Of a stretch of 64,000 bases of DNA, positions 8,247 to 41,474 are shown piece after piece. The notes below the pieces were generated by a model, which was not told the origin of the DNA, did no database searches, and worked only from the letters and a program-made list of their open reading frames with translations. Source of the DNA: Cloacibacillus porcorum (lineage in GTDB: Bacteria > Synergistota > Synergistia > Synergistales > Synergistaceae); the NCBI RefSeq assembly GCF_001701045.1, contig NZ_CP016757.1, forward strand, positions 3,432,501 to 3,496,500. Direction: 5' to 3'. A program made the translations under genes and the position numbers. Every line of letters starts with the position of its first letter. Within the stretch, counting starts at the first letter, position 1.

Positions 8247-8261
8247 TACCACAAAATTGAA

Positions 8262-8445
8262 TATTGTCTTTCTCAGTAAGGGAAACCGGTGCGGATTTTT
8301 TCCTATGCCGGTGCGGCCCCGCCACTGTGGATCAGACGAAAGCGCAAGGATGTCACTGGAATTAATTTTATTCTGGGAAGGCGCGCAAGTAGGATGAAGA
8401 TAAGCCAGGAAATCTGCTGGAGAAAGGTTTAAGGAAGGGGGTCTG
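8262..8445 (+). promoter_or_regulatory. cobalamin (B12) riboswitch aptamer
   Basis: Conserved cobalamin riboswitch segments occur in the right order: AAGGGAAACCGGTG near 8278, GCGGCCCCGCCACTGT near 8312, GATGAAGATAAGCCAGGA near 8394, and the B12 box AGCCAGGAAATCTGCT at 8403-8418. A hairpin with a T-run follows at 8508-8538. With adenosylcobalamin bound, expression of cbiK and the BtuCDF-like transporter should fall. Confidence 0.95.
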
Positions 8446-38881: not shown

Positions 38882-39961
38882 CTATTGTAAAAACGACCGC
38901 AGATAGTCGTCGACCTGGTCAAAGTCGATCAGGAAGGCGTCGTGGCCGTTCTCGCTCTCTATCTCTTCGTAATAGGCGGCGACGCCGTTTTTTGCGGCGG
39001 CGCGCACCGCCTCCTCCACCTGCCAGTTGGGAAACAGCATGTCGCTTGAAATGCCGAGGCCGAGCAGTCTGCGCCCCGCAAAACGTTTCCAGCCCTCGTC
39101 GAGGCCGCCGCGCCCCGCGCCGATATCATGCAGGTCCATCATCTTTGTCAAATAAAGATAGCAGTTGGCGTCGAAACGCTTGACGATCTCTTCACCGTGG
39201 TAATGGAGGTAGCTTTCGACCTGGAACTGTCCGTCCCAGTCGCGCGTGGAGCCCTGCGCCATTTCGCGCATGTAGCGGTGGGAAAAGGACTGCTCGCTCT
39301 TGTAGGTTATCATTGCGAGCATCCGCGCCGCTGCGAGGCCGTTCACCGGCCCCGCGCCCTCGTAGTCGCCGTCCGCCCAGAGGGGATCGCTTTTTATGCT
39401 CTGCCGCTGCACGGCGTTGAAGGCGATCGCCTGCGGATAGAGGCGGTCGGGCGCGGCGATCAGCGCGCAGCGCGGCACCTCTTCGGGGAAGGAGACAGCA
39501 TATTCCAGACCGATCATGCCGCCGAGCGAGCCGCCGATGACGGCGTACAGCCGCTCTATCCCCAGCGCGAGCAGCGCCTCCCTCTGCGCGAAAGCAGTGT
39601 CGCGCGGCGAAAGGATAGGAAATCTCATCGCCCAGCGTCTGCCGTCCGCGGGATTTTCAAAGAGCGGCGAGGTGCTGCCGTAGGGGCTTGCGAGGTTATT
39701 GAAACAAATGACGCAGTATTTGCGCGTATCCAGCGCCTTGCCGTCGCCGACGACGGCGCCCCACCAGGGCTCGGGCTCGCCGGGGCGTCTCTCGCCCGCG
39801 AGCCGGTGGCTGCCGGTCAGAGCGTGACAGACGAGAATGACGTTCGCGCCGTCCGCCTCCGCCTCGCCGTAGCGGCTGTAGACCTGCTCCAGCCTCTCAA
39901 AGAAGGCGCCGGAGGGCAGCGTTATGTTTTGCAGCGAGACGGAGCCTGTCTCCTCTTTCAT
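38882..39961 (-). CDS. metX: homoserine O-acetyltransferase MetX
   Basis: A 359-residue alpha/beta-hydrolase acyltransferase. NVILVCHALTGSHR and WWGAVVGDGKALDTRKY are family marks; the nucleophile Ser lies in AVIGGSLGGMIGLEYA. The Asp is in GISSDMLFPNWQ and the His in SENGHDAFLID. It activates homoserine for direct sulfhydrylation by MetY. It follows metY by two bases and shares its leader attenuator. Confidence 0.93.
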   Translation of the reverse strand: MKEETGSVSLQNITLPSGAFFERLEQVYSRYGEAEADGANVILVCHALTGSHRLAGERRPGEPEPWWGAVVGDGKALDTRKYCVICFNNLASPYGSTSPLFENPADGRRWAMRFPILSPRDTAFAQREALLALGIERLYAVIGGSLGGMIGLEYAVSFPEEVPRCALIAAPDRLYPQAIAFNAVQRQSIKSDPLWADGDYEGAGPVNGLAAARMLAMITYKSEQSFSHRYMREMAQGSTRDWDGQFQVESYLHYHGEEIVKRFDANCYLYLTKMMDLHDIGAGRGGLDEGWKRFAGRRLLGLGISSDMLFPNWQVEEAVRAAAKNGVAAYYEEIESENGHDAFLIDFDQVDDYLRSFLQ

Positions 39962-39963
39962 CG

Positions 39964-41259
39964 TTATTTTCCCGCCGCCTCAAGACCCTTTTCAAGGTCC
40001 GCGATGATGTCTTCCACATTTTCTATACCGACTGAGAGGCGCAGCAGGCCGTCCGAGAGTCCAGCCGCCGCGCGCTGGGCCGTCGTCAGCTGGCTGTGCG
40101 TCGTACTGGCGGGGTGGATTATCAGCGTGCGCGACTCGCCGAGGTTCGCCATGTGGCCAATGAGAGAGAGGCTGTCGACGAGCTTGCGCCCCGCCTCCAC
40201 GCCCCCCTTGACGCCGAAGGCGATCATGCCGCCGCAGCCATCTTTGAGGTAGACCTTCGCCATGTCGTTCTGCGGGTGGCTGGCAAGCCCCGGATAGCTG
40301 ACCCACTCAACCATCGGATGAGCCTCGAGGAAACGGGCCACCGCAAGGCCGTTCGCGCTGTGACGCTCCATACGCAGGCCGAGCGTGCCGAGCGAGAGGT
40401 GCAGCAGATAGGCGTCAAAGGCCGAGGGACAGCCGCCAAGGTCGCGCAGGATCGCGGCGTGGAGCTTCGCGGCAAGCGCAGCCTTGCCGAAACGCTCGGT
40501 AAATACAATGTCATGATAGGCCCTGTCTGGCTTCGCAAGTTCGGGGAATTTGTCGGGATAGGCGGCCCAGTCAAAGTTGCCTCCGTCAACGACGGCGCCG
40601 CCGATGAGGTTGCCGTTGCCCGAGATATATTTCGTCGTCGAATATACTACGACGTGCGCCCCCCATTCGATGGGACGGCAGAGCGCGGGCGTCGCGAAGG
40701 TGTTGTCGATGATGAGCGGCACTCCCTGACGGCGCGCGATGCGCGAAAGCGCCTCCAGCGGCGCGACATTCATCATCGGGTTGCCGATGATCTCGGTGAT
40801 GATGCCGCGAGTCTCGTCATTGACCGCCTGTTCCACCTGACAGGGGTGGTCGCTGTCGACGAGGATCGTCTCCACGCCGAAGCGCGAGAAGATATTTTGC
40901 AGCAGCGTCAGCGTTCCGCCGTAGACCTTGCGCGAGACGACCAGATTCGTGCCGGATGAGCAGAGCGCCGTGATAAGATGGGCGAAGGCCGCCTGCCCCG
41001 AGGAGGTAGCCAGCGTCCCCACGCCGCCCTCGAGAGCGTTCAGTCCCGCCTCAAAGGCCTGAACGGTCGGATTGGCCAGCCGCGAGTAGATAAAACCATC
41101 CTCTTCAAGGTTGAAGAGCCCCGCGGCATGGGCGCTGTCGTGGAACTGGAAGGCAGAGGAGGCATAGATCGGCAGCCCCGCCGCTCCCGTCGCTGAATCG
41201 CAGCTCCAGCCCGAGTGGAGCGCCTTAGTCATAAAACCGCGTTTTTTATTATCATCCAT
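39964..41259 (-). CDS. metY: O-acetylhomoserine sulfhydrylase MetY
   Basis: A 431-residue PLP enzyme of the Cys/Met metabolism family that makes homocysteine from O-acetylhomoserine and sulfide. Features: FMTKALHSGWSCDSATGAAGLPIYASSAFQF, YSRLANPTVQAFE, TSSGQAAFAHLITAL, IIDNTFATPALCRPIEWGA and the PLP lysine in VYSTTKYISGNGN. ATG at 41259 follows AAGGGGG; a TTG at 41262 precedes it. Its 5' leader carries the Met-rich peptide and terminator described at 41281-41419. Confidence 0.94.
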   Translation of the reverse strand: MDDNKKRGFMTKALHSGWSCDSATGAAGLPIYASSAFQFHDSAHAAGLFNLEEDGFIYSRLANPTVQAFEAGLNALEGGVGTLATSSGQAAFAHLITALCSSGTNLVVSRKVYGGTLTLLQNIFSRFGVETILVDSDHPCQVEQAVNDETRGIITEIIGNPMMNVAPLEALSRIARRQGVPLIIDNTFATPALCRPIEWGAHVVVYSTTKYISGNGNLIGGAVVDGGNFDWAAYPDKFPELAKPDRAYHDIVFTERFGKAALAAKLHAAILRDLGGCPSAFDAYLLHLSLGTLGLRMERHSANGLAVARFLEAHPMVEWVSYPGLASHPQNDMAKVYLKDGCGGMIAFGVKGGVEAGRKLVDSLSLIGHMANLGESRTLIIHPASTTHSQLTTAQRAAAGLSDGLLRLSVGIENVEDIIADLEKGLEAAGK

Positions 41260-41280: not shown

Positions 41281-41312
41281 ATAAAAAAGGCTCTGCTTAA
41301 AAAAGCAGAGCC
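41281..41312 (-). terminator. attenuator terminator before metY
   Basis: An 8-bp perfect stem (GGCTCTGC / GCAGAGCC) around an 8-nt loop rich in T, followed by six T on the minus strand. It lies about 22 bp before the metY start. Confidence 0.85.
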
Positions 41313-41339
41313 GACTGAACAGATTACGAAAATTTTCGT

Positions 41340-41411
41340 CTACTGTCTCAGAGTGGCTCTGCCGCTATCGCACATCATCATGCACATCTGCATATATGAA
41401 AAGTTTCTCAC
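41340..41411 (-). CDS. Met/Cys-rich leader peptide of the metYX attenuator
   Basis: A 23-codon open frame. GTG at 41411 has GGGAGGG six bases upstream. Codons 7-14 read M-Q-M-C-M-M-M-C, so five of eight are Met and two are Cys; the frame ends TAG at 41342-41340. Starting instead at ATG 41393 gives 17 residues with the same run. Scarcity of charged tRNA-Met (or Cys) should stall the ribosome here. The product itself probably has no other function. Confidence 0.75.
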   Translation of the reverse strand: MRNFSYMQMCMMMCDSGRATLRQ

Positions 41412-41444
41412 GCAAAGCCCTCCCGATAAAATAGAGTTTCAAAC

Positions 41445-41474
41445 ATTCTAACGGCGCGGCCGCCGCTTTGTCAA
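41445..41474 (-). promoter_or_regulatory. sigma70 promoter of metYX
   Basis: On the minus strand, TTGACA (41474-41469) and TAGAAT (41450-41445) are spaced by 18 bp. It places the transcript start near 41438, just before the leader peptide. Confidence 0.75.

Follow-up and report, generated by a model that had tools for sequence, protein, structure and literature searches.

Methionine genes in bacteria are known to be controlled by SAM riboswitches, T-boxes and MetJ-type repressors, and leader-peptide attenuation is a textbook mechanism of amino acid operons in its own right. In a comparative survey of attenuators, the specificities comprised only His, Leu, Thr and Trp, plus Ile/Val and Phe (PMC3766115), and no Met attenuator was reported either in a survey of Actinobacteria (PMC1262725) or in a survey of methionine regulation in Proteobacteria (PMC4239095). 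The open-access literature yielded no described Met leader besides a weakly supported one, the putative metL leader before metNIQ of Streptomyces lividans TK24 (PMC8079986); this absence is weak evidence, subscription journals being mostly outside the scope of the search. The statement of the initial annotation that it knew of no described Met-codon attenuator in this group therefore needs tempering, as metL is listed. Given attenuator surveys without Met and a lone Streptomyces metL, the leader analysed here very likely represents a known mechanism with a nearly unprecedented specificity.

The leader precedes the metY-metX operon in the complete 3.59-Mb genome of Cloacibacillus porcorum, and its features are numbered within the window, i.e., the whole stretch of 64,000 nucleotides that was analysed (Table 1). 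The initial annotation had proposed on the minus strand a promoter, a 23-codon frame rich in Met and Cys, segments 1–4 and a U-tailed terminator, and all of these held when the sequence was read, so that the parts themselves are shown. Its assignment of 8 bp to each of the three pairings held only partly: 1:2 comprises 8 bp with one G-U pair, 2:3 comprises 9 bp with one G-U pair, and 3:4 comprises 8 bp plus an A-T extension, 10 in total, and the antiterminator is longer still, extending beyond 2:3 as further stems. In the full-length minimum-energy fold, segment 1 is able to pair with segment 4 too. The leader peptide of the window also contains additional earlier Met codons, M7 and M9, and it is possible that these could serve as control codons as well.

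Table 1. Features of the metY leader and the metY-metX operon, in window positions
Feature	Position	Strand	Basis or remark
Sigma-70 type promoter, TTGACA-18-TAGAAT	41445..41474	(-)	11/12 consensus bases
Shine-Dalgarno of leader ORF, GGGAGGG	41418..41424	(-)	Read directly; GTG start 6 nt downstream
Segment 1 (protector), GGCTTTGC	41412..41419	(-)	Shine-Dalgarno/start region of leader ORF; partner, segment 2
Leader peptide ORF, 23 codons, VRNFSYMQMCMMMCDSGRATLRQ	41340..41411	(-)	GTG start 41411; TAG stop 41342-41340
Control codons ATG ATG ATG TGC (Met-Met-Met-Cys)	41370..41381	(-)	Invariant columns in seven-leader alignment
Segment 2, GGCAGAGCC	41355..41363	(-)	Within leader ORF, 3' of control codons; partners, segments 1 and 3; tested by covariation and by swapping
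Antiterminator, long stem closed by 2:3, leader stop codon near tip	41305..41363	(-)	Folding
Segment 3, terminator 5' arm, GGCTCTGC	41305..41312	(-)	Read from sequence
Segment 4, terminator 3' arm, GCAGAGCC	41289..41296	(-)	Read from sequence
Intrinsic terminator (segments 3:4), GGCTCTGCTTTTTTAAGCAGAGCC-TTTTTT	41283..41312	(-)	TTTTTT 41288-41283; conserved in seven genomes
metY, O-acetylhomoserine sulfhydrylase, first gene of operon, ATG at 41259	39964..41259	(-)	NCBIfam TIGR01326 above cut-off
metX, homoserine O-acetyltransferase, 2 nt after metY	38882..39961	(-)	NCBIfam NF001209 above cut-off

A DNA search across 188 genomes from the phylum placed the leader directly before metY in seven genomes, the window's genome included, which represent four genera of one family. 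Their leader peptides (VRNFSYMQMCMMMCDSGRATLRQ, VGSFSYMRMCMMMCDSGRASLRQ, LKKFLLKQMYMMMCDNGRAFLRQ, MKYSMPTDMMMCDICGATLKQ, VIYSYPLFVMMMCATGRASLEQ, MINSYPLCVMMMCAKSRAPGEQ and VMYSYPLFVMMMCANCRASLEQ) share MMMC, and alignment columns are also conserved in the -35 box, across the stop region and in the terminator's 5' arm, the remaining peptide being subject to drift. The -35 TTGACA and most positions of the -10 box are invariant among these orthologous leaders, a sequence resembling segment 1 is retained, and the antiterminator is likewise kept. The folding of the metY leader gave a z of -6.1 against dinucleotide shuffles, and this value together with the same anatomy conserved in seven genomes shows that the anatomy is more than chance.

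The metY leader is very likely one copy of a regulon-wide device that serves metQ and metN in the same genome and methionine genes across much of the phylum. The window's genome contains eight exact ATGATGATGTGY sites, three of which belong to short leader frames that have a terminator and a methionine gene (metY, metQ or metN) downstream. The MYSASHISIMYMMMCAHCGSSPELTGA leader (L159) with its terminator precedes an NlpA/MetQ lipoprotein, and the MRSSTGYFANNMMMCMYTQGSSCDLPDA leader (L164) with its terminator precedes an ABC ATPase carrying the NIL domain typical of MetN, both assigned by Pfam. A gene-blind pattern, ATGATGATGTGYN{5,16}GGNTC, in which no gene information was used, gave 73 matches in 54 of the 188 phylum genomes and none in the reversed control. 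Of the 73 matches, 65 were readable as frames of no more than 110 codons from stop to stop, and 58 of these frames stand before metQ, metN, a metX-like gene or metY of either of its two protein classes, spreading by our count over about 27 genera and five families; the association with methionine genes is thus shown.

Beyond the phylum, the MMMC leader pattern had no match in 16 assorted genomes, and a somewhat tighter pattern gave three matches in 395 genomes of the Desulfogranum phylum and two in 399 genomes of the Clostridium phylum, none with leader anatomy, while other designs would be missed by such a search. A rival explanation for the locus is that a Met-rich frame and a terminator came together by chance, and short Met-run frames do arise randomly, as seen from the five non-leader matches in about 800 genomes of these two other phyla. 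Nevertheless, conservation and target specificity in the comparative data refute this explanation, which can be considered virtually ruled out.

Several matches of the gene-blind pattern stand apart from the methionine genes named above. Two MMMC leaders (L224 and L225) lie upstream of family-3 amino-acid/solute-binding proteins, which might possibly be importers of sulfur amino acids. Another MMMC leader with a terminator (L226) precedes a phenylacetate-CoA-ligase-like AMP-binding enzyme without known methionine link, one leader match (L201) lies upstream of a class-V aminotransferase, one match (L188) has no assigned target gene, and two pattern matches (L208 and L241) probably occurred by chance. 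A doubled motif, MMMC-x-MMMC, was observed in leaders L194, L218-L221 and L257.

A gene-anchored check found an MMMC leader at 19 of the 21 metN genes of the family with readable upstream DNA, the leader being absent at the other two (G141 and G124). This search demanded just two adjacent Met codons and so did not itself force the third Met and the Cys to be invariant in the 19 metN leaders; the gene-blind pattern cannot test Cys conservation because it required Cys. The Cys after MMM is encoded by both TGC and TGT among the gene-blind matches. These observations bear on a rival reading, in which the MMMC peptide causes nascent-chain arrest in response to methionine or SAM, instead of empty Met codons, and the downstream RNA switch is the same. 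Such arrest would be favoured by the invariance of MMMC in all 19 gene-anchored metN leaders and by the retention of Cys via both of its codons, and Met codon and Met residue are not separable because Met has one codon. However, the residues preceding MMMC vary strongly, even among closely related genera, and known arrest peptides are unlike the MMMC leaders in the variability of these residues. The targets must also rise on starvation, which is a direct fit to empty codons, so that nascent-chain arrest seems an unlikely explanation and stalling at empty Met codons remains the preferred one.

Upstream of metY in relatives, the Met frame could also be found in altered forms, namely MMIMC (L095), MMYA (L107) and MMIC (L101), and four further metY upstream regions (L093, L100, L102 and L103) have no intact Met frame, with a terminator-like hairpin still present. 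Leaders keeping the terminator without the Met codons had been named in the initial annotation as what would refute the attenuator, and strictly this was met at the four loci. The loss of the Met frame is read here as local decay, because the same genomes (G165, G133, G128 and G127) keep intact metN leaders. The Met-codon attenuator reading of that annotation is supported, given that the Met codons are conserved jointly with the terminator and with 2:3/3:4 complementarity in leaders of different genera and upstream of several methionine genes.

SAM-I riboswitches are present in 113 of the 188 phylum genomes but were not found, under strict filters, in the window's genome or its sister, and all six metY orthologues that were checked and lacked the Met leader have a SAM-I riboswitch instead. 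This arrangement raises the possibility that the MMMC leaders are themselves metabolite- or tRNA-binding RNAs, riboswitch or T-box, in which translation would not be needed; SAM-I indeed stands before metY in relatives, and T-boxes occur elsewhere in the window's genome. Against this, an Rfam search at the metY leader found no SAM-I (RF00162) and no T-box (RF00230), the MMMC leaders as a group had no Rfam match and were rejected as riboswitch or T-box candidates on that ground, and their conserved core is a translatable frame with Shine-Dalgarno and control codons, without an aptamer. Little room is left for this alternative, and a translated attenuator is retained as the reading of the MMMC leaders. 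The window's genome contains eight T-box matches (L287-L294), three of them above cut-off and none at its three MMMC leaders. The sole Rfam match in the window at the gathering threshold is a Cobalamin riboswitch at 8257-8436 (+).

SAM-I aptamer and MMMC leader also stand in series on the same strand at seven loci of six genomes (L189, L190, L195, L196, L221, L222 and L257), which precede metQ, metY or metX. The aptamer ends about 115–165 nt upstream of the MMMC run, and at six of these loci scoring placed a separate terminator-like hairpin in the interval. Inferred from sequence alone, both terminators would need to be bypassed in such a series. On balance, we lean towards the bolder reading that part of the Synergistota runs its methionine regulon on MMMC attenuators, some of them stacked behind SAM-I. 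If this is true, the stacked loci would be transcribed only when SAM and charged Met-tRNA, perhaps also Cys-tRNA, are both low, forming a two-input gate that separates cofactor demand from amino acid demand.

In nearly all leaders, folding of the RNA that extends from the Met codons as far as the terminator loop produced a long antiterminator that is closed by 2:3 and carries the stop codon close to its tip. Alignment counts found 80.9%, 79.9% and 82.1% of the antiterminator cells paired for metN, metQ and metY, respectively, versus 29–58% across the three genes, and 34–47% for metY alone, when the antiterminators were slid by 1–3 columns, and all three alignments contain antiterminator pairs changed on both sides. 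The metN terminator is 96.8% paired, and 8 of its 11 pairs are changed on both sides. In the shuffle control, the metY antiterminator was strong, and the results for metN and metQ were mixed, some covariation measures being not exceptional. A swap test of duplex energies with 55 leaders gave the same picture of competing pairings, which are shown to this extent: the native 2:3 beats nearly all between-gene combinations (median rank 0.03) and the native 3:4 beats all of them (median rank 0.00), with 1:2 being weaker (median rank 0.20). The geometry of the leaders is also restricted, MMMC lying 2–4 codons from segment 2 and usually 13, 16 or 17 codons from the stop, and the terminator lying mostly 19–30 nt downstream of the leader stop. 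The third ATG is 15–18 nt from segment 2 in most leaders; ribosome footprints indicate that this about matches the reach of a ribosome stalled at that codon.

The leader very likely works by ribosome-mediated transcription attenuation, with the availability of charged elongator Met-tRNA as the sensed signal, a reading made in the absence of expression, termination or ribosome-profiling data. Transcription would begin at the promoter and a ribosome would load onto the leader ORF, steps which are predicted from sequence features only, translation of the frame being inferred. With scarce Met-tRNA, the ribosome would stall on the ATG ATG ATG run, its front edge just before segment 2 and segment 1 covered, whereupon 2:3 would form and RNA polymerase would read through into metY-metX; stalling at Met codons, sensing of Met-tRNA and read-through are likewise inferred, without in vivo data. 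With plentiful Met-tRNA, the ribosome would reach the stop codon, located inside the antiterminator, and would there block segment 2, so that 3:4 would form and transcription would end. In a leader without a ribosome, segment 1, situated around its own Shine-Dalgarno, would occupy segment 2 and termination would be favoured.

An objection to this mechanism is that Met starvation should, in all likelihood, also hinder the initiation of leader translation. Methionine being the residue with which translation starts, leader initiation should be poor in a Met-starved cell. Since the predicted protector is the Shine-Dalgarno region of the leader itself, the switch could revert to termination under severe starvation. 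The response to Met starvation could accordingly be non-monotonic, which is a measurable property.

Equilibrium folding was rejected as proof of the switch, since the full-length terminator is more stable even with a stalled ribosome: once the complete terminator is present, 3:4 wins in most leaders whether a ribosome is stalled or not. As 3:4 in the full-length RNA wins in most leaders whatever the ribosome does, the switch must act kinetically, and the modelling was moved to RNAs truncated before the terminator is complete. In this model, the RNA covered by the ribosome was removed and the partition function was computed on RNA lacking the last six bases of the terminator stem, so that the figures represent equilibrium on truncated RNA, not kinetics. 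For a stall at the first Met, the mean P(2:3) was 0.70 and the mean P(3:4) was 0.18. The corresponding values were 0.58 and 0.34 for the third Met and 0.42 and 0.63 for the Cys; a ribosome occupying the stop codon gave 0.00 and 0.82, and RNA without a ribosome gave 0.39 and 0.43. The window's leader followed the trend for a first-Met stall (2:3 at 0.82 and 3:4 at 0.00 at the same RNA length), but 3:4 was already favoured (0.92) in its third-Met stall.

The modelled Cys stall bears on another rival reading, according to which the leader chiefly senses cysteine or general sulfur via the invariant Cys codon, Met being secondary. In its support, Cys follows MMM in nearly every leader, the gene-anchored set included. 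Nevertheless, there is usually a single Cys versus a run of three Met, the Cys stall gives weaker antitermination than the Met stalls, and the targets are Met transport and synthesis, which together make a primary role of cysteine very unlikely and leave Met sensing as the favoured reading. The coupling to sulfur supply through Cys, suggested in the initial annotation, is compatible with the data but unproven, and any role of Cys is inferred.

Measured against the trp/his-type attenuators, the leader has a short ORF with a ribosome-binding site before the operon, a codon run for the amino acid made or imported (MMMC before metY, metQ and metN) and an intrinsic terminator before the first structural gene. 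The mutually exclusive antiterminator and terminator kept by compensatory change are also found, with weaker support for the metN and metQ antiterminators against shuffles, and the last requirement, that stalling frees and finishing blocks segment 2, is met as judged from spacing and from the equilibrium model on truncated RNA. As far as the open-access literature goes, the new elements are likely to be the Met specificity, nearly without precedent, the phylum, and the series arrangement behind SAM-I. A regulon-wide Met attenuator with comparative support would fill a gap in the accepted attenuator specificities.

Among the systems closest to the MMMC device, the Streptomyces metL is similar in that a short peptide with Met and Cys residues (MSTTSDRTPATEATTTPGARCMCRRMCAF) is encoded upstream of a methionine importer, but it comes from one genome, is leaderless and has no Met run, and its authors stated that the typical Rho-independent termination structure is missing (PMC8079986). 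The leader peptides of the Mycobacterium cys operon also contain codons for a sulfur amino acid, but in these the Cys runs are placed close to the stop codon, and a conserved terminator hairpin is missing (PMC1262725). SAM-I (S-box, RF00162) attenuates transcription of the same genes and precedes metY in related genomes, whereas its aptamer senses SAM without translation; upstream of these genes, the Met leaders either take the place of SAM-I or are stacked in series with it. A Met-specific T-box likewise reads the charging of tRNA-Met in cis, but it does so by direct tRNA binding without a leader ORF, and no T-box match was found at the MMMC leaders. The trp, his, leu, thr, ilv and phe attenuators share with the MMMC device the leader ORF with cognate codons, segments 1–4, the intrinsic terminator before the first structural gene, and a stop codon positioned so that the finishing ribosome blocks segment 2. 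In contrast to them, the MMMC device is, by inference, specific for Met with an invariant following Cys, has its segment 1 at the leader's own Shine-Dalgarno, and occurs in Synergistota, where it is repeated over several transcription units.
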